From the NCBI GenBank assembly GCA_948144175.1, contig CANXME010002073.1, positions 186,001 to 250,000 on the forward strand: 64,000 nucleotides of DNA, given 5' to 3'. Shown piece by piece: positions 12,289 through 51,791 of this stretch (its first letter is position 1; each line of letters starts with the position of its first letter). The notes beneath the pieces are model-generated. The model did no database searches, was not told the DNA's origin, and saw nothing but the letters and a program-made list of their open reading frames with translations. This DNA is from Closterium sp. NIES-65. Its lineage: Eukaryota > Streptophyta > Zygnematophyceae > Desmidiales > Closteriaceae. Both the position numbers and the translations under genes were made by a program.

Positions 12289-12396
12289 CTCCCGTGCCGC
12301 GTTCACGCTTGGGCCCCCAGCCCACACACCATCACTGCTCGGAGAATAGCTCGTCGACGTGCACCCAACACACAGCACGTCGTCCACCGCACCAGC
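12289..12396 (-). mobile_element. Internal 3' tail of a copia-C-type element
   Basis: This short stretch matches, in reverse complement, the non-coding tail just before the 3' LTR of copia-C (about 56960-57073), including the CACGTCGTCCACCGCACCAG stretch. Similarity stops at 12396, where copia-4 begins. The rest of this element is gone. Confidence 0.8.
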
Positions 12397-15300
12397 GGGG
12401 AGGGAGAGGCCAAGGTCGTGGGAGAGGATTTGGCAGTGAGAGGCCGAGGTGACAACAAGGAGGGGCATGGGAGCTTTGGTGGCAGGGGGAGCACCCGAAT
12501 GGAGGGTTCGTGCTGGTACTACAAGAAGGCTGGACACCCATGGTTCAAGTGTTTCAGCCGACCTGAAGGATGGGCGCCTCCAGGCATGAAGCTGCCAAGT
12601 GGTGAAGGCGCACGAGGTGGCGCTGTGCAAGGTTCAGGTGCACAAGGTGACGGTGCACAGAGTAAAGCTGACCCTGGGATGTTCCTCATGGTTAAGGATG
12701 TGCAAGTGAGTGAGGATGATGTGGGGTCGGTTGGAAAGGTTGTGATGCACCCCCTCACCTACTGGGTGAAAGATTCAGATTGCACAAGTCACATGACCCC
12801 ACGGGCAGATTTGCTTGACGAGGTAAAACCTCATAGAAAGATCAAGTTTGTGGCTACCGCTTCAGGTGCTTTGCTCCCTGTGATTGGTGTGGGGAATGCC
12901 AAGGTAATGGGTGCTAATGGGGGACTTGTGGGACTGTGGAATGTGCTGTTGGTTGAAGGTTTGTCCGCTAACCTTCTTTCTGTGCGCCGGCTGCAGAAAA
13001 GCAAGGCCAAAGTTACGTTCGGCCCAATCAGCTGCCGTGCAAAGCTTGGGAAGTTGCTGCTTTGGGACTTGGACGAGAAGAGCAGCTGCATCAAGGACCT
13101 GTGGCAGCTGCCCATCATCCCTTGGAAGGGGAAACCACCAGCAACGGCAAAGGCAGCGGCAGCGGCTAAGGCAACTGCGGGAGGAGAGGAGACTGCACCA
13201 AGTGATGGGGTCTTGGATGCAGTCAAGAAGGTGCAGCAGCCACAACAGCCACATGGTGAGCTACTTGCTCGTGTGGATACAACACCTGCATGGCCAAAGG
13301 CTTCATCTGGGAGTGGTGAGGCCGATTGAGAGACATGGCATGAAAGGCTACGCCATGTGAATTTTCCTATGCTGCAGAAGGATGGGAGCTTGAAGGGGTT
13401 GGAGGAGAAGGGGGCAGCGAAGGAGATTGGGAGCTGCCCTACATGCCTTGAGACGAAGTTCACAAAGTTTCCCTGCAGCAGCAGCACAGGACCAGCAAAA
13501 TCTCCACTTACGCTTGTGCACATGGATGTTGTGGGCCCCACGAGGGCCCTTTCTCTCTCGGGCAGCCGCTACTTCTTAACCATTGTGGATGACCACACGC
13601 ATGCCGTGTGGGTATACTGTGTCAAGACCAAGGGGGAGGTGGCAGCGGCTGTTCTCAAGAAGTGGATGCCGAGAGCTCAAAGGGAGGGCGGATATAAGGT
13701 GAAGGTGATCCGCACTGACAACAGGGGAGAGTTCATTGGAGCTGATTTTGAGGTGGTGCTGAAGAAGAAGGGGATCCACCATCAGCTCACGGTGCCCTAC
13801 AACCCTCAGCAGAACTACGTGGCTGAGCGGTTCAACTGGACCCTGCAGGAAGGTCTCGCACTCTCCTTGGGCGTGCAGGGCTGCCGGATCCGTTTTGGGT
13901 GACTGCACTGCGGCAGGTCGCCCTTGTGAAGAACAGGGTGCTGGCGACTGTGGGGGACAAGCAGTGGGTCCCCTACACCAAGTGGTATGGGAGTGCACCA
14001 GCAGTCAACATGCTAAGAGCCTATGGCTGCATGGTGGTGTTTCATGTGCCTAAGGAGAAGAGGGGAAAGCTAGAAGCTTCTTGGAGATGGGGTGTGCACT
14101 TGGGACTTGCTAAGGATCACAAGGGCTGGCTGATTTGGGACTTGACCAGCTAGCAGCTGACTGTGTCGAGGGACGTGAAGTTCATCGAGTCCTTGTACTA
14201 CAAGGAGTGGAAGCAGCAGCAGTAGAAGTTTCCTACTACACCTCTGATCATTGAGGCTGATGAGGTGCAGCGGCCTTCGAGGCAAGTGCAGGTCACTGTC
14301 TCAGAGGAGGAGATTTCTGGGGTGACAGAGGATGGGGGAGAACCTGAAGTGGAGGAGCAGCAGCTGCTGCAGGCGCAGTTGCAGCAGCAAGGTGCTCCAC
14401 AAGGTGCCGCACGTCCGGCTGACCGTCCTAGGAGGGATGTGCGCACTCCTAGCCGGCTGACCTATCTGAGCTTTGGCAAGCCAAAGGTGCTAAGGGCTGG
14501 GAATGTGGCTGAGCAGTGTGATGAGGATGAGATAGCACACTGCTATTCGGCAGCCGTCCCTGAGCCCAAGACGCTAGCGGGCCCGACGCTGAAAAGTGGA
14601 AGAAGAGTGTGAAGGAAGAGTATGACTCTCTGCTGGAGAATGAGACGTGGGAGCTGTGTGAGCTACCACCTAGGAAGAAGGTCATTCCGTCCAAGCTAAT
14701 CTTTAGGCACAAGTAGGACCTGATAGGGAGCTGACCCGCTACAAGTCAAGGCTTGTGGCAAAGGGGTTTCATTAGACAAAGGGAAGGACTTTGACGAGAT
14801 TTTTGCTCCTGCAAGAAAAGAAAAACACAGTGGGTGTGATTGGCAATGGCAGCAAACCGTAGATGGCGGGTGAAGCAGATGGACATTACCACCGCCTTCC
14901 TCAATGGGATCATTCTGGAGGAGCTGTACATGTTACAGCTTAAGGGAGTAGATGATGGGAGCGGCAGGGTGTGCAGGCTAATGAAGGCCATCTATGGCCT
15001 GAAGCAGGCTCCTCGTGCATGGTACCACAAGTTAGACGAGACACTGCTGGCTGGGGGTTTCAAGAAGAGTGAGTGTGATCACAGCCTGTTCCTGCTGCAA
15101 GAGAAGGAGCAGTTCCTCATGCTCCTGGTGTATGTGGACGACATCCTGCTTTTCTCTGAGTCGTCTGCAATGATTGAGCGTATGGAGGAGATGCTGGGGA
15201 TGCAGTTCAAGTGTTCCAAGATGGGAGATCTGAAGTATTACCTTGGGATGCATGTGGAGAGGGACCTTGACAAGAGAGTGTTGAGGTTGCACCAGAGGAA

Positions 15301-18953: not shown

Positions 18954-19000
18954 ATGGACCCCACTCAGAGAAGCGCCATCGTCCTAGATAATGGATCCGG
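18954..19000 (+). CDS. ARP3: ARP3 exon 1
   Basis: Encodes [16 protein letters not shown], the start and the first phosphate-binding loop. The exon ends after two bases of a Gly codon, followed by donor GTAACC at 19001. The ATG at 18954 is the only one giving the plant-type M-D-P-T start. Confidence 0.92.
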
Positions 19001-22000
19001 GTAACCCCTTTCGCCATCCCTTTCGCGCTCAGGCTCCCCGCTTCCCTTCCTCCCTCGCCACTTGATAAACCGCAACTCTGTATCGTAATGGCCTCTTCAG
19101 TCGCCTCGCCCCTCCATTCCTCCATGTCGTTCACCCCACTCCTGCTCTGCTCCTCCTCTCCATGCGTCTCCTTCACACCTCCTGCACGATGGGGTTTGAA
19201 GGTAATCCACGGCCCAGCATCGTCATACTCACACAGCGGTCACGCCACAGCTCATGCGAATCTTGTTCCTGTCACTCTGTTCTTCACCCCAACCCCCTTC
19301 CCGCTCTAGGTTCACGAAGATGGGCTTTGCCTGAAAGCTAGACCCCAGCTTCGTCATCCCCATGGCAGCCGCCTGCCACGACTCCTCTGCATCCCACTCT
19401 TGCTCCTCCTCCTCTCCCTTCTTACCTTCCCAGGTTCACCAAGATGGGCTTTGGCGGCAATCTAGAGCCCAGCTTTGTAATCCCCACAGTCGTTGCTTGT
19501 CATGACTCATTCGCCGCCTCTGCTGCGCTGGCGGCGCCTGGAGCCAATGCCGTGTCGCCAGCTCAGCAGCAGCAGCAGGCCCACGTGGCAGCGCTCATGG
19601 CTGACCTGGACGTCCACGTGGGCGAGGCGGCGTACGCTGCTGCACGATCTGGGCCGTACAAGCTGACGCACCCTGTGCAGAGAGGACAGGTGGGTGGAAA
19701 GGGGTGCATGTGGGTGGAGAGGGGTGCAGGTGGGCGGAGAGGGATGCAGGTGGGTGGAGTGGAATGGGGAAACTGACACAACATCCAAGCTTTCGATTGG
19801 TTTGGCCCATTCAAACTGACACATCTCGTGTAGCAGAGGGGACATACCAGTGGGTGGAGGTGAATGGGGTGAGAATCATCAAGACAACGTTTAATCTGGG
19901 CCCCGTATGTAAACGCTGACGCTTCCAGTGCAGAGTGGACAGATGGGTGGAGAGCGGTGCGGGTGGGTCTCGAGGGCCGAACTGGGCCGTGATTCACACA
20001 ATCAGCAGCGTGGATGCGTGGAAAGGGGAGAGGTGGGTGCAGGGAGGAGAGAGTGCACATTCTTCCACCAGACAAGGGCGGCCCGCCGTGGGGCATCTGT
20101 GGCAGCAGAAGGCGTGATGGTTTCTGTCTATCCCTGTGTGATGTTTCCTTCCCGTGTATGCCTCATTCCTTTTTTCCCACCGCCAGATAGAAGCATGGGA
20201 CGCCATGGAGCATCTGTGGCAGCAGAGCCTCTTCAAGTACATGCGGGTGGAGCCAGAGGAGCATGTGCTGCTGCTGGCTGAGAGCCCTCTCACCCCACCC
20301 GAACACCGAGAATACATCGCCGAAATCATGTTTGAAACGTGAGTGGGTGCAGTGCGGTGCAATCAGGTGAGAGCAGAGAAGTCTGTGGTGCCTGTTCATT
20401 CGGGCGGAGTTGGATTGGAGGAGCATGTGCTGCTGCTGGCTGAGAGCCCTCTCACCCCGCCCGAACACCGAGAATGCATCGCTGAATCATGTTCGAAACG
20501 TGAGTGTGTGGGACACGAGTGCAGTGCATTGGGAGCAGAGAGGGCTGTTATGCCATGCTGAGAGCTCTCTCTCCCCGCCCGAGCACCGAGAGGGCTCTCA
20601 GCTAGCAGCAGACAGGGCTGTTATGGCACGAGGTCTCCACCCCCTCCATCGTCTCCACCCCCTCCATCGTCTCCACCCCCTCCATCGTCTTTACTCACAC
20701 AACCGGATACGGAGAGCTCATCACCGAGAGTTCATCACCGAGAGTTCATCACCGAGAGTTCATCGTTGAGAGTTCATCATCGAGAGTTCATCACCGAGAG
20801 TTCATCACCGAGAGTTCATCCCCGAGAGTTCATCACCGAGAGTTCATCATCGAGAGTTCATCACCGAGAGTTCATCACCGAGAGTTCATCACCGAGAGTT
20901 CATCACCGAGAGTTCATCACCGAGAGTTCATCCCCGAGAGTTCATCACCGAGAGTTCATCACCGAGAGTTCATCCCCGAGAGTTCATCACCGAGAGTTCA
21001 TCCCCGAGAGTTCATCACCGAGAGTTCATTGCCAAAATCATGTTTGATAAAATCGTGGGTGCAAAGGGCCCCCTTCCAGTCTACCCTGTGCCCTTACTTC
21101 TTCGATCCCACCCCTCTGTCCCCTTCCTTCCCCTTGCCTCACTCACGCTGTGGATGCAGGTTCAACGTGGCAGGTCTGTACATGGCTAGTCAACCATCCC
21201 TTGCCCTCACTGCAGCAAACACGGCAGCTCAGGTGAAACCAACCCTGGCAGGTTGTGTGTTTCCAACAAGTTCACATGCACATACAAGGCAGTATTTTTG
21301 GAAATGATGGCAGAAAGCATCTAGACATCAATATGTTATGCTAGTTCCTTAGGTTACGCACCCCATTCCTGGCAATTCGGCTATATTATTATATCCCTCT
21401 TGTGAACAAAGCCGCTTTAACTCCCCCCCCATGCCAGTCTCCCAATATCCATCATTACGCTTACCAGTCTCCTCCCCATTCCCCCCATCCCCCCTGCCTC
21501 CGTTCTCCTTCAATCAACTGAATATCTCACCTCTCGTCCTCAGGTTTTCATCCTCTATTGAGACGTGTCATGTATACATCTCTCATTCCCCTTTCACCCC
21601 TGCTTTTCACGTCTTGAGGTCTTCACATGCTCGTCTAACCAGAAGCCCTCGTTATAGTCACACTTTACAGTTTTGGGTTTCTACGTAACCCTAATAAATG
21701 GCCAGCGCTGGTTTCTCTTTCTTGACCCCCAAAGCCCTTATGGCGACACCCCTAAACTAGTGTGGAGTATAGGAAAACGTTTGCGGCAACCTATGCAAGA
21801 AGCGTTGAAGGTACTACTGCTGCTGGTGCTTCTAGACTAGGCCGTGGGGGGGATGTTAGCTAGAAACGAGCTAACAAATCAGCTTAGCTAATGTCCAGCG
21901 TCGACCTATAAATGTGTCGCGGGGGACATTTTCGACAAACACATTCGTGTTCGTCGCCGCTTGGCTAGCTGCGACGAACCGAGCACGAACATATTCAGGC

Positions 22001-25000
22001 GAGCAGGAACATATTCAGGCGAGCACGGACGTGTTCACCCCGGACAGTTTTGGCCAAAAGAAATCACCTGTTGGTCAGTTTGCTCACCTGTTGGTCAGTT
22101 TGCTCACCTGTTGGTCAGTTTGCTCACCTGTTGGTCAGTTTGCTCACCTGTTGGTCAGTTTGCTCACCTGTTGGTCAGTTTGCTCACCTGTTGGTCAGTT
22201 TGCTCACCTGTTGGTCAGTTTGCTCACCTGTTGGTCAGTTTGCTCACCTGTTGGTCAGTTTGCTCACCTGTTGGTCAGTTTGCTCACCTGTTGGTCAGTT
22301 TGCTCACCTGTTGGTCAGTTTGCTCACCTGTTGGTCAGTTTGCTCACCTGCTGGTCAGTTTGCTCACCTGCTGGTCAGTTTGCTCACCTGTTGGTCAGTT
22401 TGCTCACCTGTTGGTCAGCTATGTTGCGCTTGACGCGTCAGGCGTTTTTGACGCTGGCGTCTGGACGGGGCGTCCAGACGCTTGACGCCCGGTGCCCTCT
22501 GCCCTGGACGCCCGCTTGACGCTAGTCCGGGCAGGGTAAAAAAATTTTCCGGGCAGGGGTAAAAAAACCTGCCTAGTAAGGATACGCAGGGGTTAGAATG
22601 CAAGAAGTTAACATTTGTCACCTATAGTTATAAATACTCCATAATATCCAGAAAATCCTGAAAATCTCCAGAAGGCATGGAGGCACTAACAGAATGACCG
22701 GCGGGACTAGGAGTTGACATGATATTTTAATCGTCTTAACCCAATTTTAGCTAGGAAGGCTTAGTAGCGTGACTGGCGAATTCTAGTGTAAGGAATGCTT
22801 GACAATGTCGAGAGAAACAGATCTGTGTAATGTCGACCTAGATCTGGTTCTCTAGTTTAGTTGGGGGCCAACCAGGTTGGGAGAAGTAGATGTGGATGGG
22901 TACAAATGTGTGGGGGGGAATAAGTGAGGGTTGCGTTTTTTAGGTAAAAAACGCGGCCCCCAGTTGGCAATTTCATCGTCAATTCTGGTTGCAATGAAAT
23001 CGCGAGTCAATTTGGTGCAGGAATTTATTTTTTTTCGGGCTGCCCGATTTTTTTTCCCCGAACGTCCAGCGTCAAACCCATTTGACACGTCCGGACGCTG
23101 GACGCTGCCCTTCCAGGGTGTCAGGCGCAACATAGTTGGTCAGTTTGCTCACCTGTTGGTCAGTTTGCTCACCTGTTGGTCAGTTAGCTCAGGTCTACTC
23201 CTAAGCATGCCCTCTCATGGCCCCATCTCTCCCCACCCTCCAGGTCCCAATGACAGGCGTGGTGGTGGATGCAGGCTTTGCTTCAGCCTCTGTCGTCCCC
23301 GTGGTGGAGGGCTATGTTTTGGGGGGCAGCTCTCGCTCCATGCCCGTGGGCGGCGCTCACTCCACGGCCTTCGTGCAACAGCTCATGCGGGTAAAGCGTT
23401 GCTCTCTACCCTTTCATCTCATCTGCAACTCGCTCTGCTCTGCTGGTAGAGGGCTACGTGTTGGCAGGCAGCTCCCCACCTGTGCCGGTTGGGTTGGGGC
23501 CGCTCACCCCACTCCACGGCCTTGGTGCAAGAGCTGATGTGGGCACATAACGCTGATGGTGCAGCAACTCAACCAGTGGTGCAGCAACTCAACCAGTGGT
23601 GCAGCAACTCAACCAGTGGTGCAGCAACTCAACCAGTGGTGCAGCAACTCAACCAGTGGTGTAGCAACTCAACCAGTGGTGCAGCAACTCAACCAGTGGT
23701 GCAGCAACTCAACCAGTGGTGCAGCAACTCAACCAGTGGTGCAGCAACTCAACCAGTGGTGCAGCAACTCAACCAGTGGTGCAGCAACTCAACCAGTGGT
23801 GCAGCAACTCAACCAGTGGTGTAGCAACTCAACCAGTGGTGCAGCAACTCAACCAGTGGTGCAGCAACTCAACCAGTGGTGCAGCAACTCAACCAGTGGT
23901 GTAGCAACTCAACCAGTAGTAGAGGGCTATGTGTTGGGGGGCAGCTCTCGCTCCATGCCAGTGGGGGGCAGCTCTCGCTCCATGCCAGCGGGGGGCGCCC
24001 AATCTACTGCCTTGGTGCAACAGCTCATGCGGGTAACCTGCTCTCTATTCTCATGCTTCTACATCTCTCTGGTGGTACACGGCTGTGTGTTGGCGGGCGC
24101 TCACTCTAGAGCCTTCATGCAAGCTTATGCCGGGTCAAGCTCGTTCGATGCCGCCACAGGTCTGTGTGGTTCGTTCGTCTTCTTCCAAATCAAACACGCA
24201 GGACATGGTATATTTCTATGTGCTATGAGATCATATGGTGTTGTATTGTTGTTACTCTTGATGGATTGTGATGGGAGGTGGCTCTTGTTTTCATTGCTCT
24301 TGCAAGCACCGATCCATGGAGGGTCACTCACTGCACTCTGGAGTATCACTGCACTCTGGAGTATCACTGCACTCTGGAGTATCACTGCACTCTGGAGTAT
24401 CACTGCACTCTGGAGTATCACTGCACTCTGGAGTATCACTGCACTCTGGAGTATCACTTTCATTTCTTATTTGATTACCCCATGGTCACCCCTTAGTTCA
24501 TGTGTTATGCATGGTAAATAGTTATCCACAGGCTCCTGCGCTACCCCATGCCCTACCATGTCCTATCTCATGCCTTACCCCATGTTCCATCCCATGCCCT
24601 ATCCCATCCCCTTTCCCTTGCCCAATCCATGCCCAATCCCATGCCCTATGCCATGCCCTACCCCGTGCCCAATCCTGTGCCGCTATTTTATGCCCTATGC
24701 CATGCCCTACCCAGTGCCCTATCCCATGCCCTACCCAATGCCTTACCCCATGCCCCATGCCCTACCCCATACCCTACCCCATGCCCTACCCCGTGCTCTA
24801 CCCCATGCTCTACCCCATGCCAATATCAGGACCGAGGGGAGCCGGTACCAGCAGAGGAGGCGATTGAAGTGGCGAGAAAAGTGAAGGAGACCTATGGATA
24901 CACATGCTCCGACCTTGTCAAGGTGTGGATACACATGCTCCGACCTTGTCAAGGTGTGGATACACATGCTCCGACCTTGTCAAGGTGTGGATACACATGC

Positions 25001-28000
25001 TCCGACCTTGTCAAGGTGTGGATACACATGCTCCGACCTTGTCAAGGTGTGGATACACATGCTCCGACCTTGTCAAGGTGTGGATACACATGCTCCGACC
25101 TTGTCAAGGTGTGGATACACATGCTCCGACCTTGTCAAGGTGTGGATACACATGCTCCGACCTTGTCAAGGTGTGGATACACATGCTCCGACCTTGTCAA
25201 GGTGCGGATACACATGCTCCGACCTTGTCAAGGTGCAGTGCACCCATGCATGTTAAAGGAGTGAGAAGGAGAGAGAAGGAGAGAGAAGGAGAGGGAAGGA
25301 GAGAGAAGGAGAGGGAAGGAGAGAGAAGGAGAGGGAAGGAGAGAGAAGGAGAGGGAAGGAGAGAGAAGGAGAGGGAAGGAGAGAGAAGGAGAGGGAAGGA
25401 AAGAGAATGAGAGGGAAGGAGAGTGAAGGAGAGGGAAGGAGAGTGAAAGAGAGGGAAGGAGAGTGAAGGAGAGGGAGGGAGAGTGAAGGAGAGGGAAGGA
25501 GAGTGAAGGAGATGTATGGGTACACATGCTCTGATCTTGTCAAGGTACCTCCAGTCCGTAAACATGCAAACACGCAAACATGTAAACATGCAAACATGCA
25601 AACATGCAAACACGCAAACATGCAAACACACAAACATGCAAACACGCAAACATGCAAACACACAAACATGCAAACACGCAAACATGCAAACATGCAAACA
25701 CGCAAACATGCAAGCATGCAAACATGCACACATGCAAACATGCAAGCATGCAAACATGCACACATGCAAACATGCAAACATGCAAACATGCGCACATGCA
25801 AACATGCAAACATGCAAACATGCACACATGCAAACATGCAAACATGCAAACATGCAGACATGCAAACATGCACACATGCAAACATGCAAACATGCTGTGA
25901 TGTACGTGGCTCCATCATCCAGCCATGTACGTGTGTGCTTCCTTCCGCATGCATCCAACTTGCAAGACTCTCCACACGCAAACATGCCAGCATGCACCAG
26001 TGCTCCAATCTCATGTGTGTGCATGTGTTCAGGTACACATGTGTTGAGGTACACATGTGTTGGGGTACACATGTGTTGAGGTTAGGGATGAGCAAGGTGG
26101 CGAACACCTGTTCGGTTCGCCTCGAACGTGTTCGAGGCGAACCGAACAGGTTTTGTTTTTTAGCTCAAATCGTTCGCCGAACAGTGTTCGATGTTCGCCC
26201 GAACACGTTCGTGTTTGGGCCGCTGCTGAAATTTGCCCGCGACGAACACGAACAGTGTTCGAGGTTCGCCCGAACACGCCTCCACAGGCGAACAGCGAAC
26301 ACCTGTTTTTTCCTAAACTGTTCGCCGAACCGAACAGTGTTCGGTTCGGCAAAAGAGGGTGTTCGACAAGAGGCGAAGACGAACATGTTCGTGTTCGCCC
26401 TTTGCTCATCCCTAGTTGAGGTACACATGTGTTCAGGTACACATGTGTTCAGGTACACACGTGTCGAGGTACACATGTGTTCAGGTACACATGTGTTGAG
26501 GTACACATGTGTTCAGGTACACATGTGTCAGGTACACATGTGTTCAGGTACACATGTGTCAGGTACACATGTGTTCAGGTACACATGTGTTCAGGTACAC
26601 ACGTGTTGAGGTACACATGTGTTCAGGTACACATGTGTTGAGGTACACATGTGTTGAGGTACACATGTGTTGAGGTACACATGTGTCAGGTACACATGTG
26701 TCAGGTACACATGTGTTGAGGTACACATGTGTTCAGGTACACATGTGTCAGGTACACATGTGTTCAGGTACACATGTGTTCAGGTACACATGTGTCAGGT
26801 ACACATGTGTTGAGGTACACATGTGTTCAGGTACAGCCAGGTGTGGCCGCCCAGCCAGGTGTGGCCGCCCACCAATGCAAGCTCATGTGGCCCTGTCCCC
26901 TCATCCCCCTCCTCCTCTTTCTCCCTTTCTCTGTGCCCCCAGGAGTTCACCAAGCATGCAAGGGAGCCTTATAAGTACCGCAAGGTCTGGGCCGCCACCA
27001 ACGGTCATGTCATGTCATGTCATGTCATGTCATGTACTCCTGCACCTCCCTTCCCCCCCCCCCCCCAACCTCCCTTCCCCCACCCCACCTCCCGCTCCCC
27101 CCCCCCCCCCCCACACCCCCCTCTCCCCCGCCCCCTGCCCCCCTCTCCCTTCCACCTACCTGTCATCAGGAGTTCACGAAGCACGACAGGGAGCCCAATA
27201 AGTACCGCAAGGTGTGGACCGCCACCAACGCGCGCACCAACACGCCCTACCGCTGCGACGTGGGGCATGAGCGGTTTCTGGCTGCTGAGGTGTGTGCGGG
27301 GATACACAAGTGTGTAGGGCTTAGGGATATGGTTGGCCTTACTGCTGCCATGTGGAGCACGAGCCGTTCCTGGCTGCTGAGGTGAGTGAGGGGATGCACG
27401 TGGGTATTGAAGGGTTTCGGGTTTCGGGGTTCTAGGGGTTCCCACCAACACACCCTATCGCTGCAATGCGGGGCACGAGCTGTTCCTGGCGGGCGATGTG
27501 AGTGAGGGTTTTGGGTTGATTGTCTCAATGAACGGCCATCAACGATTGTCTCAATGAACGACCACCAACGATTGTCTCAATGAACGGCCATCAACGTTTG
27601 TCTCAATGAACGGCCACCAGCGATTGTCTCAATGAACGGCCACCAACGATTGTCTCAATGAACGGCCACCAACGATTGTCTCAATGAACGGCCACCAACG
27701 ATTGTCTCAATGAACGGCCACCAACGATTGCCTCAATGAATGGCCATCAACGATTGTCTCAATGAACGGCCACCAACGATTGTCTCAATGAACGGCCACC
27801 AACGATTGTCTCAATGAACGGCCACCAACGAGTGTCTCAGTGAACGGCCACCAACGATTGTCGTCTCAATGAGCGGCCACCAACGATTGTCTCAATGAAC
27901 GGCCACCAGCGATTGACTCAATGAACGGCCACCAACGATTGTCTCAATGAACGATCACCAACGATCGTCTCAATGAACGCCCACCAACGATTGTCTCAAT

Positions 28001-31000
28001 GAACGGCCACCAACGATTGTCTCAATGAACGACCACCAACGAGTGTCTCAATGAACGATCACCAACGATCGTCTCAATGAACGCCCACCAACGATTGTCT
28101 CAGTGAACGCCCACCAACGATTGTCGTCTCAATGAACGGCCACCAACGATTGTCTCAATGAACGATCACCAACGATCGTCTCAATGAACGCCCACCAACG
28201 ATTGTCTCAATGAACGGCCACCAACGATTGTCTCAATGAACGACCACCAACGAGTGTCTCAATGAATGATCACCAACGATCGTCTCAATGAACGCCCACC
28301 AACGATTGTCGTCTCAATGAACGGACACCAACGATTGTCTCAATGAACGGCCACCAGCGATTGACTCAATGAACGGCCACCAACGATTGTCTCAATGAAC
28401 GATCACCAACGATTGTCTCAATGAAAGATCACCAACGATCGTCTCAATGAACGGCCACCAACGATTGTCTCAATGAACGATCACCAACGAGTGTCTCAAT
28501 GAACGCCCACCAACGATTGTCTCAATGAACGGCCACCAACGATTGTCTCAATGAACGACCACCAACGAGTGTCTCAATGAACGATCACCAACGATCGTCT
28601 CAATGAACGCCCACCAACGATTGTCGTCTCAATGAACGGCCACCAACGATTGTCTCAATGAACGGCCACCAGCGATTGACTCAATGAACGGCCACCAACG
28701 ATTGTCTCAATGAACGATCACCAACGATCGTCTCAATGAACGCCCACCAACGATTGTCTCAATGAACGGCCACCAGCGATTGACTCAATGAACGGCCACC
28801 AACGATTGTCTCAATGAACGATCACCAACGATCGTCTCAATGAACGCCCACCAACGATTGTCTCAATGAACGGCCACCAACGATTGTCTCAATGAACGAC
28901 CACCAACGAGTGTCTCAATGAACGATCACCAACGATCGTCTCAATGAACGCCCACCAACGATTGTCTCAGTGAACGCCCACCAACGATTGTCGTCTCAAT
29001 GAACGGCCACCAACGATTGACTCAATGAACGGCCACCAACGATTGTCTCAATGAACGGCCACCAACGATTGTCTCAATGAACGCCCACCAACGAGTGTCT
29101 CAATGAACGGCCACCAACGATTGTCTCAATGAACGATCACCAACGATCGTCTCAATGAACGCCCACCAACGAGTGTCTCAATGAACGGCCACCAACGATT
29201 GTTTCAATGAAAGACCACCAACGAGTGTCTCAGTGAACGGCCACCAACGATTGTCGTCTAAATGAACGGCCACCAACAATTGTCTCAATGAACGGCCACC
29301 AGCGACTGTCTCAATGATCGGCCATCAACGATTGTCTCAATGAACGGCCACCAACTATTGTCTCAATGAACGACCACCAACGATTGTCGTCTCAATGAAC
29401 GCCCACCAACGATTGTCGTCTCAATGAACGGCCATCAACGATTGTCTCAATGAACGGCCACCAACGATTGTCTCAATGAACGCCCACCAACGATTGTCGT
29501 CTCAATGAACGGCCTCCAGCGATTGTCTCAATGAACCGCCACCAACGAGTGTCTCAATGAACGCCCACCAACGATTGTCTCAATGAACGGCCACCAACGA
29601 TTGTCTCAATGAACGACCACCAACGAGTGTCTCAGTGAACGGCCACCAACGATTGTCGTCTCAATGAACGACCACCAACGATTGACTCAATGAACGGCCA
29701 CCAACGATTGTCTCAATGAACGGCCACCAACGATTGTCGTCTCAATGAACGGCCTCCAGCGATTGTCTCAATGAACCGCCACCAACGAGTGTCTCAATGA
29801 ACGACCACCAACGATTGTCTCAATGAATGACCACCAACGATTGTCTCAATGAACGGCCACCAACGAGTGTCTCAATGAATGGCCACCAACGATTGTCGTC
29901 TCAATGAACGGCCACCAGCGATTGTCTCAATGAACGGCCACCAGCGATTGTCTCAATGAACTGCCACCAACGAGTGTCTCAATGAACGCCCACCAACGAT
30001 TGTCTCAATGAACGACCACCAAGGATTGTCTCAATGAACGACCACCAACGATTGTCTCAATGAACGACCACCAACGAGTGTCTCAGTGAACGGCCACCAA
30101 CGATTGTCGTCTAAATGAACGGCCACCAACAATTGTCTCAATGAACGGCCACCAGCGACTGTCTCAATGATCGGCCACCAACGATTGTCTCAATGAACGG
30201 CCACCAACTATTGTCTCAATGAACGACCACCAACGATTGACTCAATGAACGGCCACCAACGATTGTCTCAATGAACGGCCACCAACGATTGTCGTCTCAA
30301 TGAACGGCCTCCAGCGATTGTCTCAATGAACCGCCACCAACGAGTGTCTCAATGAACGACCACCAACGATTGTCTCAATGAATGACCACCAACGATTGTC
30401 TCAATGAACGGCCACCAACGAGTGTCTCAATGAATGGCCACCAACGATTGTCGTCTCAATGAACGGCCACCAGCGATTGTCTCAATGAACGGCCACCAGC
30501 GATTATCTCAATGAACTGCCACCAACGAGTGTCTCAATGAACGCCCACCAACGATTGTCTCAATGAACGACCACCAAGGATTGTCTCAGTGAACGCCCAC
30601 CAACGATTGTCATCTCAATGAACGGCCACCAACGAGTGTCTCAATGAACGGCCACCAGCGACTGTCTCAATGAACGGCCACCAACGATTGTCTCAATGAA
30701 CGGCAACCAACTATTGTCTCAATGAGCGACCACCAACGATTGTCGCTCAAAGAACGGCCACCAACAATTGCCTCAATGAAGGGCCACCAACGATTGTCTC
30801 AATGAACGGCCACCAACGATTGTCGTCTCAATGAACGGCCACCGGTGATTGTCTCAATGAACGGCCACCAACGAGTATCTCAATGAACGCCCACCAACCA
30901 TTGTCTCAATGAACAACCACCAACGATTGTCTCAATGAACACCCACCAACGATTGTCGTCTCAATGAACGGCCACCAACACGCCCTATCACCGCGACGAG

Positions 31001-33666
31001 GTGAGAGGTCCCTTTCTGCTCAAATGAGGTGAGTGGTTGATAGGACGCCCAATGGACGCCCACAAATGAGCGCACCAGCACGCCTTAAAGCTGCGATGTG
31101 AGTGCGTGGATGTGCTTGGGGTGACGTCTTCGGGGTTCGGGTTTGGTTCTTTGAGGTTTTATTTCAATGGCCAGCCAGCCACCAGTGCTCCAATGCTCTT
31201 CTTCTCTCCTGAAATCAGGGGACACCCAAGCTGACTACTGGCAGAGCAGGTGCATGTAGCAGCAGTACAATTGTTTATGACTGCCCCTCTCCACCCCTCT
31301 TTGCTCTTCCACTGCACCGTTTCTCCCCATGCTGTTCCTCTATGTGTCTTGCCATGTCAACTACGCCTTCTGCTCCCTCCCTCCCTCCCTCCTCCCCCCC
31401 CGGCAGGTCTTCTTCGCCCCAGAGATAGCAGTGAGCAACGTGGGCACGTCGCTGGCAGAGCTGGTGGATGCAGCGGTGCAGACTGCCGCCATCGACACAC
31501 GCCGCTCGCTCTACAAGGTGACGCTTGTGTGGGTGGGTGATCCAAGGGGTGCTTCCTCTGCACTCAGTGGCGTGGCAGGGCCCCCTCCATCCCCCGCCTG
31601 TGCAGGCCGCTGCCATCGACACACGCCGCTCGCTCTACAAGGTGGCTGTTGTGTTTCCATGGTTTGTGCGACAAGGGGTGCTTCCTTGGGCCGGAGTCGA
31701 GGCGGCATCGTGCTGAGAGGGGGAATCGTGACAGTCAGTTGCCTTCCCGGTGGCTCGCCAGCTCATCGCTACTTGCGTGTCCGTGTGCCTTACCCTCCTG
31801 CACAACATCATGCTTTCAGGCACCTCCACCATGTTCAGGCGGCTCCACCATGTGCAAGGACTTGGATCGATCATTATGGCTATCCCCATCGTTCTCCCTT
31901 CCTCTCCCACTCCCAGAGAGCGTCGTGTGTTCAGGCGCCTCCACCATGTGCAAGGACTTTGACCATAAGGACTTTGACCATAAGGACTTTGACCATAAGG
32001 ACTTTGACCATAAGGACTTTGACCATAAGGACTGTGACCCATCATTATGGCCCAGCCTTCTCCCTTTGATCATTATGGCGCGTCATACCCTTGCCCCCAT
32101 GTATCCCGTGCCCCCATGACATGTATCCCGTGCCCCCATGACATGTATCCCGTGCCCCCATGACATGTATCCCTTGCCCCCATGACATGTATCCCTTGCC
32201 CCCATGACATGTATCCCTTGCCCCCATGACATGTATCCCGCAGAACATTGTGCTCTCAGGCGGCTCCACCCTCTTCAAGGACTTTGGGCGGCGCTTGCAG
32301 AGAGACGTGAAGAAAGCTATCGAGGCCCGCATGGCCGGGTCCAGCGAGGTGCGCTTGTAGCAATGAGGTGTGCTTCTAGTGGGATGTGCTTCTAGTGGGA
32401 TGTGCTTCTTGTGGGGTGTGCATTCAGTGAGGTGTTGCCATCATGTTGTTAGCGAGAGATGTGAAGATGTAGCGAGGCCCGCATGGCTGGGTCTAGCGAG
32501 GTGCGCTTGTAGTGAGATGTGCTTTTACTTTATTGTGCTTTTAATGGGGTGTGGGTATAGTGAGGTGCTGCTATCATGTTTTAAGCGAGACGTGAAGGGA
32601 GCTGTTAAGGCCTGGATGCCTGGATCTGCTTCTATTGAGGTGTGATTAAAAGGAAATGTGCTATCACGTAATGAGGTGTATTAATAAGGAAACGTGCTTC
32701 TAGTGAGGTGTGCTTTTAGTGAGGTGGTGTCATCACGTTGTAAGCAAGGCGTGAGGAAAGGCCAGGTTGGCTGGATCTGCTTCTAATGAGGTGTGCTTCT
32801 CGTGAGACATGCTTATTGCGGGGGTGTATAATGGCGTGTGGTCACAGAGGTCACGGTGGTGTCCCACCATCTGCACGAGCACCAATTGCACCAACCATTG
32901 CTCCTTCCCTTCCCTTCCCTGCCCCCCACCTTCCCTCCACCAACCAGCCCAACGCATCTGAATCTGCATGCGCACGCTGTGCGGTTCGTTCAGCAGCTCA
33001 CTTCACCTCATGCCCCGTCACTTCCCCCCCATACCGTACAGCCCAAGGCATCGGACATAGAGGTGGCAGTGGTGTCCCATCATCTGCAGGAGCATGCCGT
33101 GTGGTTCGGGGGCTCTGTTGTCGCCTCCTCCCCGGGTTTCCAAGGGGTAAGCCCTGTGTATAATAGTCCAGTGAGTTTAGTTGTCGCCGTCACCTGTTTT
33201 CCAAGGAGTGAGCAGCAATACCCTGTTTCATATGATTCTTTACCGTATATGCTGTTCTTTCGATTGACTCAACCTCTTCACAATGACAGAGGTTGACCGA
33301 CAGCAGCACAAATTGTCTCTGCATTGGTTCCTGTTAAGTTCCACCTGTTGTCAGCCGTTTCTTTAAGCCGTGAGTGACGTGTCCTCTATTTGGCACCTCT
33401 CTCTGTGCATCGTGCACCAGGTGTGCACCACACGGGCTGCTTGTTTGGAGCATGGACCAAGCACGTGCCGAGAAAACAGGATGATCAGTGCCCGCTTGGC
33501 TCCCGTACTCATCGGTTCGTTTCAACGCATTGTGTCTTGTTTTCCTTTTTGCCCTTCCCCCTCTCTGTGCATCCCGCACCAGGTGTGCACCACACGAGCT
33601 GCTTACTTGGAGCACGGGCCTAGTGTATGCAGAGCAAACAGAATGATAAGTGCCTCTTTGTCGTAA
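18954..33666 (+). CDS. ARP3: Actin-related protein 3 (Arp2/3 complex subunit), 11 coding exons
   Basis: ARP3 pairs with ARP2 in the Arp2/3 complex, which nucleates branched actin filaments in the cytoplasm. The exons given below all have GT-AG borders and join in frame to 1293 nt, i.e. 430 residues plus stop, close to the roughly 420-430 of known ARP3s. Recognisable blocks in order are the nucleotide-binding [95 protein letters not shown] and AVWFGGSV. The start MDPT matches plant ARP3. The extreme C-terminus (after CRAN) is unlike other ARP3s. Introns are packed with minisatellites and copies of exon edges. The hAT element begins 60 bp after the stop. Exon calls come from family similarity and splice sites; no transcript was available. 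Confidence 0.93.
19001..19433 (+). repeat. Intron 1 with two decayed copies of the start of exon 2
   Basis: Copies of the exon 2 beginning start near 19187 (strongly decayed, GATGGGGTTTGAAGG core) and at 19310 (well preserved, with its own CTCTAG acceptor). They are spaced roughly 125 bp apart, the third member being exon 2 itself at 19434. The copy at 19310 has an in-frame TGA at 19332-19334 eight codons in. Confidence 0.82.
19434..19689 (+). CDS. ARP3: ARP3 exon 2
   Basis: Starts after CCCAG with the last base of the Gly codon and encodes [20 protein letters not shown], an Ala/Gln-rich insertion with five Gln, then [19 protein letters not shown] and THPVQRGQ. It ends at a codon boundary before GTGGGT. 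The Ala/Gln stretch corresponds in place to a variable loop of plant ARP3. Confidence 0.92.
19690..20186 (+). repeat. Intron 2 with copies of the exon 2 end and exon 3 start
   Basis: A roughly 20-bp G-rich unit (GTGGGTGGAGAGGGGTGCAG-like, about 19690-19762) repeats the exon 2 donor area about four times. Decayed copies of the exon 2 end (CTGGGCC...CTGACGC...GTGCAGAG) lie at about 19799-19855 and 19893-19955. A copy of the exon 3 start (GGGGCATCTGTGGCAGCAGA) lies at about 20080-20116. Confidence 0.72.
20187..20338 (+). CDS. ARP3: ARP3 exon 3
   Basis: Encodes [37 protein letters not shown] and YIAEIMFE, a core ARP3 block. Acceptor CGCCAG, donor GTGAGT; ends after two bases of a Thr codon. Confidence 0.94.
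20423..20610 (+). repeat. Copies of the 3' half of exon 3 in intron 3
   Basis: 20423-20500 repeats exon 3 from GAGGAGCATGTGCTG to GAAACGTGAGTG, including the donor, but with one base deleted so the frame is lost. A second, shorter copy (GAGAGCTCTCTC...CACCGAGAG) lies at about 20557-20610. Confidence 0.88.
20640..20700 (+). repeat. Short tandem repeat, CCCCCTCCATCGTCTCCA unit
   Basis: About three and a half copies of an 18-bp unit sit between the exon 3 copies and the 14-bp array. Confidence 0.8.
20711..21029 (+). repeat. 14-bp minisatellite seeded from exon 3
   Basis: About 23 copies of ACCGAGAGTTCATC. The unit resembles exon 3 CACCGAGAATACATC, and the array runs straight into GCCAAAATCATGTTTGA, which resembles the end of exon 3. 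The open frames across it come only from the repeat. Confidence 0.88.
21160..21232 (+). CDS. ARP3: ARP3 exon 4
   Basis: Encodes [20 protein letters not shown] plus TAAQ after completing the Thr codon. Acceptor GATGCAG, donor GTGAAA. It matches the FNVPGLYIA region of plant ARP3. Confidence 0.92.
21233..21853 (+). other. Intron 4, left part
   Basis: No coding signal was found. A G-rich tract (GTGGGGGGGA, about 21844-21853) followed by TGTTAGC could be a polypurine tract and LTR start of an old retroelement tail, but no second LTR or pol is seen. Confidence 0.4.
22071..22418 (+). repeat. 20-bp minisatellite in ARP3 intron 4
   Basis: About 17 nearly identical copies of TTGGTCAGTTTGCTCACCTG. 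The array is interrupted at 22419 by a small hAT-type element and resumes at 23136. Confidence 0.95.
22419..23135. mobile_element. 717-bp hAT-type non-autonomous element (MITE) in the 20-bp array
   Basis: The ends are CTATGTTGCGCTTGAC and, in reverse complement, CTATGTTGCGCCTGAC (15 of 16 identical). TTGGTCAG stands immediately on both sides (22411-22418 and 23136-23143), an 8-bp duplication as hAT transposases make. The interior has no convincing coding sequence; subterminal regions are rich in GACGC/GCGTC motifs. Because TTGGTCAG is also the start of the repeat unit, the duplication is slightly less certain than usual. Confidence 0.82.
23136..23183 (+). repeat. Remainder of the 20-bp minisatellite
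   Basis: About two and a half copies of the same unit as 22071-22418, separated from it by the inserted element. Confidence 0.92.
23244..23390 (+). CDS. ARP3: ARP3 exon 5
   Basis: Encodes [37 protein letters not shown] and [12 protein letters not shown], the second phosphate-binding loop region (MTGVVVDxG). Acceptor CTCCAG, donor GTAAAG. 49 codons, in phase with exons 4 and 6. Confidence 0.93.
23446..23545 (+). repeat. Decayed copy of the exon 5 3' half
   Basis: GTAGAGGGCTACGTGTTGG, GCAGCTCC and CTTGGTGCAAGAGCTGATG follow the order of exon 5, with insertions in between. Confidence 0.82.
23557..23916 (+). repeat. 20-bp minisatellite (TGGTGCAGCAACTCAACCAG)
   Basis: Eighteen copies. The unit resembles the exon 5 end GTGCAACAGCTCATGCGG (V-Q-Q-L), and the array lies between two copies of that exon end. 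Confidence 0.93.
23917..24135 (+). repeat. Further copies of the exon 5 3' half
   Basis: 23921-24033 repeats exon 5 from GTAGAGGGCTATGTG to CAGCTCATGCGGGTAA, donor included, with an internal duplication of the SSRSMP stretch. A weaker copy (GGTGGTACACGGCTGTGTG...GCCTTCATGCAAG) follows at about 24063-24135. Confidence 0.85.
24331..24456 (+). repeat. 18-bp minisatellite
   Basis: Exactly seven copies of CTGCACTCTGGAGTATCA in ARP3 intron 5. No exon seed was recognised. Confidence 0.95.
24541..24822 (+). repeat. Degenerate 11-12-bp repeat, CATGCCCTACCC type
   Basis: About 24 imperfect copies fill the end of intron 5 up to the exon 6 acceptor and may serve as its pyrimidine tract. Confidence 0.88.
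24830..24922 (+). CDS. ARP3: ARP3 exon 6
   Basis: Encodes [20 protein letters not shown] and [11 protein letters not shown]. Acceptor ATATCAG, donor GTGTGG (a weak donor). 31 codons. The last 27 bases and the donor are the first unit of the tandem array that follows. Confidence 0.92.
24896..25235 (+). repeat. 31-bp minisatellite built from the end of exon 6 and its splice donor
   Basis: Eleven nearly perfect copies start inside exon 6 at GGATACACATGC and each ends CTTGTCAAGGTGTGG-like, so each carries the exon end plus a GT donor. The last copy has GTGCGG. Confidence 0.97.
25257..25513 (+). repeat. Purine-only repeat (GGAGAGAGAAGGAGAGGGAA type)
   Basis: About 13 copies of a roughly 20-bp GA unit. 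Units reading GAGAGTGAAGGAGA at the right end grade into the exon 6 copy GTGAAGGAGATGTATGG, which suggests that the array grew from the GTGAAGGAGA of exon 6. Confidence 0.9.
25503..25545 (+). repeat. Second copy of the exon 6 end with donor
   Basis: Encodes [14 protein letters not shown] followed by GTACCT. It has Met where exon 6 has Thr; Met is the usual residue in plant ARP3 (KEMY). Confidence 0.9.
25561..25894 (+). repeat. 8-bp minisatellite (GCAAACAT type)
   Basis: About 41 copies of GCAAACAT with variants (GCAAACAC, GCACACAT, GCAAGCAT) in intron 6. Confidence 0.95.
26033..26836 (+). repeat. 16-bp minisatellite (AGGTACACATGTGTTG), split by a MITE
   Basis: Units of 15-16 bp at 26033-26082 and 26415-26836, ending TTG, TTC or TC. 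About 30 copies. The gap is an inserted hAT-type element. Confidence 0.95.
26083..26414. mobile_element. 332-bp hAT-type MITE rich in GTTCG
   Basis: The ends read TAGGGATGAGCAA on both sides as inverted repeats. GTTGAGGT occurs at 26075-26082 and 26415-26422, a perfect 8-bp target duplication. The inside contains more than twenty GTTCG/CGAAC motifs in inverted clusters (for example CGAACGTGTTCG) and no transposase. Confidence 0.93.
26943..27003 (+). repeat. Copy of the first half of exon 7
   Basis: Encodes [20 protein letters not shown] after a CCCCCAG acceptor, then AACGGTCATG. It is a good match to exon 7 (27170-27229) and precedes it by 227 bp. Confidence 0.92.
27004..27168 (+). repeat. 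CATGT microsatellite and C-rich tract
   Basis: Five to six CATGT units (27007-27035) are followed by C-runs of 11-14 that form the pyrimidine tract before the exon 7 acceptor. Confidence 0.9.
27170..27289 (+). CDS. ARP3: ARP3 exon 7
   Basis: Encodes [40 protein letters not shown]. Acceptor CATCAG, donor GTGTGT. 40 codons; complete relative to plant ARP3, unlike the upstream half copy. Confidence 0.92.
27345..27506 (+). repeat. Copies of the exon 7 end, each with a GTGAGTGAGG donor
   Basis: GGAGCACGAGCCGTTCCTGG to GCTGAGGTGAGTGAGG (about 27350-27391) and CACCAACACACCCTATCGCTG to GATGTGAGTGAGG (about 27436-27506) follow exon 7. Their donors are closer to consensus than the exon's own GTGTGT. 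Confidence 0.88.
27510..30985 (+). repeat. 26-bp minisatellite, about 130 copies
   Basis: The unit contains TCAATGAACGGCCACCAACG plus ATTGTC; some units gain GTC (29 bp). It fills nearly all of ARP3 intron 7. The right end runs into CACCAACACGCCCTATC, which resembles exon 7, so exon 7 may be the seed. No open frame of note. Blocks several units long recur at a distance (see findings). Confidence 0.97.
30986..31406 (+). other. Intron 7, right end
   Basis: Holds a decayed exon 7 piece (about 30975-31000) and otherwise no feature until the pyrimidine tract and CGGCAG acceptor of exon 8. Confidence 0.6.
31407..31517 (+). CDS. ARP3: ARP3 exon 8
   Basis: Encodes [20 protein letters not shown] and [17 protein letters not shown], matching the IDTRR(A/S)LYK block. 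Acceptor CGGCAG, donor GTGACG. 37 codons. Confidence 0.93.
31598..31642 (+). repeat. Copy of the exon 8 end with acceptor-like AG and donor
   Basis: After CCTGTGCAG comes an in-frame copy of [11 protein letters not shown] followed by GTGGCT. It could act as an 11- or 12-codon microexon without changing the frame. Confidence 0.88.
31814..32039 (+). repeat. Copies of the exon 9 start and a 15-bp array
   Basis: TCAGGC-CTCCACCATGT units at about 31815-31865 and 31930-31961 repeat the SGGSTM part of exon 9. From 31952, AAGGACTTTGACCAT repeats six times; the first ten bases are the KDF codons of exon 9. Confidence 0.88.
32086..32240 (+). repeat. 22-bp minisatellite (CCCCCATGACATGTATCC core)
   Basis: About seven copies of a 22-bp unit directly before the exon 9 acceptor, where they supply the pyrimidine tract and probably the branch region. 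Confidence 0.93.
32244..32348 (+). CDS. ARP3: ARP3 exon 9
   Basis: Encodes [20 protein letters not shown] and [15 protein letters not shown], the third nucleotide-binding segment (SGGST). Acceptor CCGCAG, donor GTGCGC. Leu stands where plants have Met in SGGSTM. Confidence 0.94.
32349..32830 (+). repeat. Degenerate copies of the exon 9 end and GAGGTGTGCTTCTAGT-like repeats
   Basis: GAGGCCCGCATGGCTGGG...AGCGAGGTGCGCTTG recurs at about 32467-32510, weaker versions at about 32583-32641 and 32745-32790, separated by GTGAGATGTGCTT-like repeats. All are decayed copies of the exon 9 end and the start of intron 9. Confidence 0.85.
32838..32885 (+). repeat. Copy of the exon 10 start region
   Basis: GAGGTCACGGTGGTGTCCCACCATCTGCACGAGCA reads [12 protein letters not shown], a copy of [12 protein letters not shown] in exon 10 about 200 bp downstream. 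Confidence 0.88.
33042..33146 (+). CDS. ARP3: ARP3 exon 10
   Basis: Encodes [20 protein letters not shown] and [15 protein letters not shown]. Acceptor GTACAG, donor [14 protein letters not shown] is diagnostic for actin-fold proteins near the C-terminus. Confidence 0.93.
33178..33216 (+). repeat. Copy of the exon 10 end with donor
   Basis: GTTGTCGCCGTCACCTG...TTCCAAGGAGTGAGC repeats the exon 10 end [10 protein letters not shown] and its donor, with a small deletion. Confidence 0.78.
33421..33582 (+). repeat. First copy of the terminal ARP3 exon (11a)
   Basis: After a GCACCAG acceptor it encodes [20 protein letters not shown] then MISARLAP, and stays open all the way into the second copy at 33583. 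Using this acceptor without further splicing would add 54 residues to the protein. Confidence 0.85.
33583..33666 (+). CDS. ARP3: ARP3 exon 11 (terminal, copy b)
   Basis: Encodes [20 protein letters not shown] and MISASLS with stop TAA at 33664-33666. [11 protein letters not shown] corresponds to the EEYGxSICRxN end of ARP3. The choice of copy b over copy a gives a normal length; both copies have identical acceptor contexts. Confidence 0.78.
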   Translation: MCTTRAAYLEHGPSVCRANRMISASLS

Positions 33667-48900: not shown

Positions 48901-48959
48901 AGCACCGAAGGACTAGCCATAGGAGCAGCAGTAGGAGTAGGCAGGCAGGTAGGACGGCC

Positions 48960-49290
48960 GAGACACGATGTTACAGCCCAGACACGATGTTTGAGGGCCT
49001 CTAGGGAGGCAGGTGCGGGGCCGACGGGGCCTCTAGGGGCGATCGCGGGGCCGTACGGGGCCTCTAGGGAGGTAAGCGTGGGGCCAACGGGGCCTCTAGG
49101 GGCGATCGCGGGGCCGTACGGGGCCTCTAGGGAGGTAAGCGTGGGGCCGACAGGGCCTATAGGGGCGATCGCGGGGCGGTACGGGGCCTCTAGGGAGGTA
49201 AGCGTGGGGCCAGCGGGGCCGTAGGGGACCTCTAGGGAGGTGAGCGCGGGGGCCGTTCGGGGCCTCTAGGGGCGGGCCGTCGGGGCCTTA
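48960..49290 (-). repeat. Tandem leader repeats of copia-B
   Basis: About four to five copies of a roughly 60-bp unit containing GGGGCCTCTAGGGGCGATCG and GGGGCCGTACGGGGCCTC lie between gag and the primer binding site; GTAGGTAGG microsatellite at 49323-49356. Confidence 0.88.
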
Positions 49291-51685: not shown

Positions 51686-51791
51686 TGGTGCGGTGAGCGT
51701 GGACGGCACACGACTTACCTTTCAGTCAGGTCGACGTAGATACCACTTACCTATTTCGTAGTCCCAGGCCGGCAACTGTGCGGAAGTCACT

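Follow-up and report, generated by a model that had tools for sequence, protein, structure and literature searches.

Copies of exon edges in the adjacent introns of ARP3 and CCT-family genes of Closterium sp. NIES-65

Described systems and the ARP3 locus

Minisatellite (VNTR) growth is a well-known process. Duplications within genes, including those of whole introns with flanking parts of exons, were reportedly described by Gao and Lynch in 2009 and are like those found here; we know of no description of arrays of border units in that work. Internal gene duplication is termed commonly observed in a passage of PMC4974935 that refers to Gao and Lynch (2009). For the potato RdRp gene, the same paper gives a single case of a tandem genomic duplication that crosses an intron-exon boundary. 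With regard to competing splice sites, the statements of PMC9225289 on long flanking introns are that the sites nearest across the exon are preferred; for 3' sites, the preference for the upstream site is merely reduced.

The DNA analyzed here (the window) is a stretch of 64,000 nucleotides from contig C1775 of a genome assembly of 874 Mb and 2400 contigs. The exon boundaries of its ARP3 gene (Table 1) were placed on the basis of DNA and homology, and the predicted product matches the Arp3 chain 3dwl with an E-value of 4.3e-121. A second haplotype of the region (haplotype B) is present on contig C1745. On contig C213, six or more strong actin matches, several of them with long open frames, are located between 0.47 and 3.1 Mb. 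Domains of Copia-type retroelements (RVT_2, rve, gag_pre-integrs, and Pol_BBD) occur on both sides of ARP3; the scan covered 9 of 38 long open frames and found domains in 7 and nothing in 2.

Two stretches of the ARP3 introns are absent from haplotype B. The first (window 22419-23134, ∼716 bp) lies within a 20-bp minisatellite of intron 4. Judged by eye, an 8-bp direct repeat (TTGGTCAG) accompanies ends that resemble inverted repeats (CTATGTTGCGC / GCGCAACATAG), an appearance like that of a hAT-type insertion. The second (window 26083-26414, ∼332 bp) lies in intron 6; again by eye, a direct repeat (GTTGAGGT) along with inverted ends (TAGGGATGAGCA / TGCTCATCCCTA) suggests a MITE-like insertion.

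Table 1. Coordinates of the ARP3 gene model, of exon-edge copies and arrays, and of neighboring retroelement domains (window positions unless another locus is named)
Feature	Position	Strand	Remarks
Copia-type domains	427-2844, 4705-6339, 12103-13326, 46401-49265, 51762-56768, 61724-63511		domain scan
ARP3 gene	18954..33666	+	430 aa, 11 exons with GT-AG introns; modelled on DNA and homology
Older copy of exon 2 5' edge	19132-19233	+	73%, offset -258
Copy of exon 2 5' edge with AG	19308..19362	+	85%, offset -124
ARP3 exon 2	19434..19689	+	gene model
Copy of exon 2 3' edge	19894..19976	+	76%, offset +247; AT in place of donor GT
ARP3 exon 3	20187..20338	+	gene model
Copy of exon 3 3' edge with donor	20418..20554	+	period 162, 84%
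Additional exon 3 3' edge copies	20557-20591, 21016-21063	+	
14-bp minisatellite, 22.7 copies	20712..21029	+	unit related to exon 3
ARP3 exon 5	23244..23390	+	gene model
Copy of exon 5 3' edge	23444..23543	+	71%, offset +142; terminates at donor
Copy of exon 5 3' edge	23962..24047	+	85%, offset +642
Additional exon 5 3' edge copy	24096-24140	+	
ARP3 exon 6	24830..24922	+	gene model
31-bp array, 11 units	24895..25235	+	unit = last 28 bp of exon 6 + GTG
Copy of exon 6 3' edge with donor, beyond array	25502..25546	+	89%, offset +622
Copy of exon 7 5' edge with AG	26940..27003	+	88%, offset -227
ARP3 exon 7	27170..27289	+	gene model
Copy of exon 7 3' edge with donor	27336..27399	+	83%, offset +92
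Additional exon 7 3' edge copies	27443-27508, 31053-31100	+	
ARP3 exon 8	31407..31517	+	gene model
Copy of exon 8 3' edge with donor	31600..31686	+	80%, offset +124
Exon 9 piece from near 5' end	31931..31961	+	87%; sister piece 31835-31863
ARP3 exon 9	32244..32348	+	gene model
Copy of exon 9 3' edge with donor	32454..32527	+	84%, offset +154
Exon 10 piece from near 5' end	32840..32881	+	83%, offset -213
ARP3 exon 10	33042..33146	+	gene model
Copy of exon 11 5' edge with acceptor	33396..33492	+	82%, offset -162
ARP3 exon 11	33583..33666	+	last base = end of stop codon; gene model
CCT5 exon 7 array	L021 6211-7638		reverse-complement orientation

Extent and arrangement of the copies

Each ARP3 exon was searched together with its 25-bp flanks. 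Clear same-strand copies were found for both edges of exons 2 and 7, the 3' edges of exons 3, 5, 6, 8, and 9, and the 5' edge of exon 11. Weaker or interior copies were found on the 5' side of exons 3 (26 bp), 9 (29-31 bp, twice), and 10 (42 bp), and a copy of the 3' edge of exon 10 (36 bp, 78%) falls below the 32-bit threshold. Exons 1 and 4 gave no copies in this search. The copies that a preliminary description of the locus had noted at exons 2, 3, and 5-11 are confirmed, some of them being weak, and most of the clear ones carry the splice site as it had stated, the exceptions being the copy of the exon 2 3' edge and the nearest copy of the exon 5 3' edge. The self-comparison that it had proposed as a check was carried out as a matrix of 11 exons against 10 introns, in which the excess in adjacent introns was found. 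All plus-strand scores of 36 or more pair an exon with its own adjacent intron, and the maximum for non-adjacent pairs was 24. The minus strand gave one score of 40 (exon 3 against intron 3), with all others at 25 or below. In a scan of 40-mers outside minisatellites, 38% were duplicated in exon interiors, 33% at exon edges, 18% in introns, and 0.04% in shuffled sequence. Because interiors are duplicated as often as edges, the ARP3 copies extend deep into the exons.

A Pfam search for CCT chaperonins revealed partial duplicate matches adjoining exons of three genes, and a proteasome family search revealed a similar duplicate pair in one gene. The CCT search gave 93 matches in 11 genes among the matches listed, with 87 of 166 candidates scored; 10 of the 11 CCT-family genes were analyzed in both haplotypes, the gene on contig C584 being omitted. 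One haplotype provided 43 coding segments, or 40 after subtraction of three that were themselves copies. A copy in the segment's own surroundings (2.5 kb per side, at least 36 bits) was present for 31 of these 40, and the control rate, which includes true CCT paralogy, was 7%. Two segments of an organelle-type chaperonin (L033) had no copies of at least 36 bits within 2.5 kb on each side.

Exon models were built from PDB homologues for CCT2 (8 exons), CCT5 (9 exons), and CCT7 (6 exons, partial), with GT-AG imposed by the aligner. Among the 60 exon edges of these genes and ARP3, 37 have a copy of at least 32 bits in the adjacent intron (ARP3 13/20, CCT2 9/14, CCT5 9/16, and CCT7 6/10). The same search gave 5/1324 for exon edges against introns of other genes, 0/312 against non-adjacent introns of the same gene, and 1/60 on the minus strand. 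The sole minus-strand match over threshold is a piece of exon 3 in ARP3 intron 3 (window 20587-20613, position by eye, 40 bits). An exon-versus-intron search of other genes with control introns, as had been suggested, thus shows the excess there also, and the view that the copies are far too systematic for chance is borne out by the ARP3 matrix and the controls for the 60 edges. The local and repeated character ascribed to the process holds in other genes too, as in the 31 CCT segments. The pattern of exon-edge copies is real and systematic and occurs in most of the genes sampled, which are ARP3 and the CCT family of one genome.

A copied 5' edge is located in the intron ahead of its exon, and a copied 3' edge in the intron after it. 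Queries of up to 120 bp also matched the opposite-side intron in 23 of 52 cases, since at this length they take in most of a short exon; with non-overlapping exon halves the number was 3 of 52. The copies are same-strand direct repeats that span the exon border, with the copy alongside, which is the arrangement that identifies a border tandem duplication. The nearest copy is spaced at a median of 156.5 bp from its exon edge (110-190 bp in 27/38, a multiple of three in 13/38), and second and third copies are often farther away. The splice dinucleotide is aligned and intact in 30 of the 38 nearest copies (AG 15/15, GT 15/16), a retention that is biased upward because alignments tend to end ahead of an altered site; among the rest, the alignment is cut inside the splice site in one and fails to reach it in six. 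Alignments of nearest copies end 1-9 bp past the splice site in 15/38, before it in 6/38, and at least 10 bp into the intron in 17/38, giving 21/38 with no match to the intron flank beyond 9 bp. The tandem period reaches into the intron at ARP3 exon 3 (162 bp), ARP3 exon 6, CCT5 exon 1 (174 bp), CCT5 exon 7, and the CCT4 array.

Many copies are gapped within the exon part, and no consistent splice signal was seen by eye at their inner boundary. The nearest copies are one-sided and do not have the two splice sites and coding constraint that characterize mutually exclusive duplicated exons. Modelled introns are longer than 250 nt in 27 of 30 cases; the three shorter ones contain no copies at the 32-bit threshold but have little room for any. 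The idea that a 5' and a 3' copy together represent an older exon, each being one half of it, was dropped as not convincing. Where an exon or segment had copies on both sides, their ends fell within 10 bp in 7 of 18 cases, against an expectation of 4.0 or 2.9 (P = 0.07 or 0.01) depending on the null chosen. One L015 segment with internal stops was omitted from this test and from the CCT third-position and copy codon-position counts given below.

Longer arrays are found at two of the edges. At CCT5 exon 7 the 124-bp unit includes an acceptor and 56 bp of the exon, and its ∼11 copies are 98-100% identical, so that about a dozen near-identical acceptors precede the exon. In the ARP3 exon 6 array the exon end itself is the first unit. 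The preliminary description held that the minisatellite units come from the same exon edge, which is mostly unsupported: the units of 4 of 18 ARP3 minisatellites are closer to an adjacent exon than are random exon pairs at P ≤ 0.05, with another three at 0.057-0.061, and the same holds for 2 of 8 arrays in CCT2, CCT5, and CCT7 combined. Its proposal that the copies inflate a 1.3-kb coding sequence to 14.7 kb also finds little backing, since exon-edge copies make up 11.6% of ARP3 intron and leave most of the 14.7 kb unexplained. The corresponding shares are 25% in CCT2, 49% in CCT5, and 44% in CCT7. Repeats identified by TRF cover 47% of ARP3. In intron 7, a 26-bp minisatellite of ∼131 units occupies 3.46 kb (window 27518-30979); it is shorter in haplotype B, and its unit shares a short core with exon 7.

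Haplotype differences and codon positions

Haplotype B has copies at the same ARP3 exons, mostly at equal offsets, which are shifted where minisatellites of other length intervene. The ARP3 exons differ between haplotypes at 3 of 1293 sites, all of them third codon positions, and the copies diverge like intron (22/1153 against 70/4334). For these counts, and for the copy codon-position counts, intron 7 was aligned at its two ends only. At the CCT loci the haplotypes differ by 0.1-2.2%; the differences amount to 7/2697 at exon third positions of the CCT segments and 143/36543 in introns.

The L015/L016 pair was identified as CCT4 from its best match, CCT delta (E 2.1e-59). Intronic acceptor units at one exon number three in haplotype A (spacing 127, 128, and 112) and four in haplotype B (128, 112, 112, and 112), and in every unit the exon start comes after AG. 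By eye, B's first unit appears to join the acceptor of the first unit of A to most of the body of the second unit of A. Downstream of the exon lies an 88-bp tandem array (L015 6862-7248, reverse-complement orientation), whose unit number differs between the haplotypes, giving a 294-bp difference.

At CCT1 (L023/L024), haplotype B carries one additional unit of 136 bp. The inferred working exon of haplotype A has an acceptor and first codons (GCA ACC) that match an intronic copy in B, and the inferred working exon of B begins GCC ACA, which encodes the same amino acids. A deletion between the two copies would convert the B arrangement into that of A. The opposite step cannot have been a plain duplication of A, since B has a new pyrimidine tract that is absent from A at that place. 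Duplications polymorphic between haplotypes were considered as an unbiased test of placement and set aside as too few; the 10 locus pairs contain 33 indels of at least 20 bp, many of which are minisatellite changes.

Differences between copy and exon amount to 6.0%, 5.9%, and 22.4% at first, second, and third codon positions for the 38 edges, a ratio of 3.76. This set includes two arrays, those of the ARP3 exon 6 3' edge and the CCT5 exon 7 5' edge, whose omission gives a ratio of 3.98 (bootstrap of 35 edges, 3.27-4.94), with a third-position excess in 32 of the 35. A neutral copy beside an exon that changes synonymously is expected, at the rates seen between haplotypes, to give a ratio of 1.6 (95% interval 1.25-2.21) when copies are pooled over positions and of 2.0 (1.14-3.58, P = 0.016) when position rates are estimated separately. 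Within the copies, haplotype differences are spread over the codon positions as 9/2462, 12/2470, and 14/2472; this count skipped poorly aligned stretches, after which the ARP3 copies contribute 12/934. The copies are today without clear coding constraint and evolve like intron.

The third-position excess and the present neutrality together suggest that the copies were under coding constraint for part of their past. One route to such constraint is exchange between copy and exon, at which CCT1 hints, and another is a diverged donor. Gene conversion of exons from decayed copies, or faster synonymous evolution of the exons, was rejected as a present-day source of the excess because exon third positions (7/2697 in the CCT segments and the three sites in ARP3) change no faster than introns.

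Explanations and comparison with known systems

The best account, which we hold with moderate confidence, is recurrent tandem duplication of units that span exon borders, with the innermost unit being spliced. The units, mostly of 110-190 bp, would consist of intron end, AG, and exon start, or of exon end, GT, and intron start, and would be duplicated in tandem repeatedly. Only the innermost unit, which is contiguous with the rest of the exon, would enter the mRNA, and the outer units would be intronic. Provided that splicing uses the innermost sites, the mRNA is not altered by a border duplication, and the gene would survive. We infer for this organism that the inner sites are chosen through exon definition. 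Unit number would shift by recombination or slippage, so that introns lengthen and another unit may enter service. In favor of this account are the confinement of the copies to adjacent introns, their spacing, the unit numbers at CCT4, the haplotype pair at CCT1, and the intron-like divergence of the copies. The short match to the intron flank in 21 of the 38 nearest copies counts against plain duplication, because a recent tandem duplication should match the intron too, and the third-position excess is not explained by plain duplication and decay. The duplication of ARP3 exon interiors as often as edges and the scarcity of intron-only events also count against it.

It is possible, and we put it forward tentatively, that exon ends are long-lived tandem arrays whose units rotate between service and retirement by recombination with the exon. 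A unit in service would be spliced and subject to coding selection, and a retired one would be intronic and neutral. If true, this would explain the coding-type differences of the copies, the allelic switch at CCT1, and the border excess described below, and introns would grow from retired exon ends. Exon ends would also gain spare parts, and synonymous change could enter exons in tracts.

We regard as rather unlikely that local duplication is uniform and occurs anywhere, with exonic events purged, intronic ones decaying, and border copies staying visible through exon conservation. The abundance of intron-internal minisatellites in ARP3, as seen in its TRF coverage, the present neutrality of the copies, and the occurrence of intron-only duplications with spacings similar to those at borders are all consistent with such a process. 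However, uniform duplication predicts more intron-only events than are observed. Outside minisatellites the four genes contain 80 duplicate pairs, of which 65 involve exons (11 of them being one CCT5 array) and 15 lie within introns, and 10 of the latter touch an exon-derived copy and are secondary. There are thus 48 distinct exon-derived copies and at most five independent intron-only pairs, this being an upper bound, with ARP3 31832/31928 and CCT2 2210/2504 lying on exon-copy pieces. With units of the same lengths placed at random, the expected ratio of border to intron-only events is 0.37. When only pairs with at least 90% identity and a length of at least 50 bp are counted, there are still 11 at borders and 2 within introns. 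The third-position excess likewise argues against uniform duplication.

The pair count excludes minisatellites with units of up to 80 bp, which may hide intron-only events in ARP3; they account for only 6%, 1%, and 9% of the span of CCT2, CCT5, and CCT7. Because exon conservation slows the decay of border pairs and minisatellites are left out, part of the border excess is bias, but we do not think that all of it is. Exon-intron borders, already proposed as the target of the process, are over-represented among non-minisatellite duplications.

An origin of the copies from a diverged coding source, such as introgressed or ancient alleles or lost homeologs, joined beside the exon, is improbable. 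Synonymous differences would then have been present from the start, and pairs with 0-1% mismatch at positions 1 and 2 do differ by 10% at position 3 (22/214, or 22/119 without the five rows of the CCT5 exon 7 array); the intron flank unmatched beyond 9 bp in more than half of the nearest copies fits as well. Against this, several pairs match well into the intron, the haplotypes at the CCT loci differ by no more than 2.2%, and the CCT matches come in near-equal-score pairs or a triple, with no obvious diverged second set among the 87 of 166 candidates scored.

Still less credible is that the copies function as alternative ends of exons and are maintained by selection on protein and splicing. 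The codon-position pattern and the AG and GT that are intact in nearly all aligned cases speak for such selection, but the retention of splice sites is inflated by where alignments end, many copies are gapped in the exon part, and no consistent inner splice signal was seen by eye. The proposal is unsupported by the haplotype changes, which fall about equally on the three codon positions of the copies, whereas the exons barely change. An assembly artefact, conceivable in a repeat-rich region of a contig-level genome, is negligible as an explanation, since the ARP3 copies agree on two haplotype contigs and assembly errors do not produce the divergence of several to 29% between copies and exons that is seen outside the exact arrays.

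That copy number differs between chromosome copies points to a route of intron growth. The genes offer a natural experiment in intron lengthening and in the choice of the spliceosome among near-identical sites, as with the CCT4 acceptors 112-128 bp apart. The tests used here, which compare adjacent with other introns, split differences by codon position, and compare haplotypes, can be applied to any phased genome.

The preliminary description knew of no mechanism that produces such copies. A need for a new one to explain the basic pattern is not supported, as border duplication is known from a single case (PMC4974935) and the use of inner sites would follow from exon definition (PMC9225289). 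As far as the potato RdRp gene is described in PMC4974935, that case is alike in being a tandem duplication over one intron-exon border in a gene still in use. It differs in being a single event with a new intron that uses a cryptic exonic donor, whereas here the gene models do without an additional intron and such duplications recur at the majority of borders in the four modelled genes. Intron gain of the AGGT type described by Rogers, as outlined in parts of PMC3443670 and PMC2891723, resembles the present case in that an exonic tandem duplicate ends inside an intron. In that model, however, the resemblance is between the intron start and the downstream exon and between the intron end and the upstream exon, which is the reverse of the arrangement here; opposite-side matches with exon halves were confined to the 3 of 52 given above. 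Introner elements, which are related introns across many genes, do not appear to account for the copies, as judged from the 5/1324 matches of exon edges to introns of other genes.

VNTR growth is similar in that the arrays of ARP3 exon 6 (31 bp × 11) and CCT5 exon 7 (124 bp × ∼11) include the splice site, but exon-edge copies here mostly comprise one, two, or three diverged units, each ∼150 bp long. The literature searched gave no report in which several genes have exon-edge arrays at most of their exons, an absence that is weak evidence. The pattern is best filed as local tandem duplication across exon borders, and what looks new is its scale, at most borders of four modelled genes, its iteration, and the presence of haplotypes with a different unit as the working edge.
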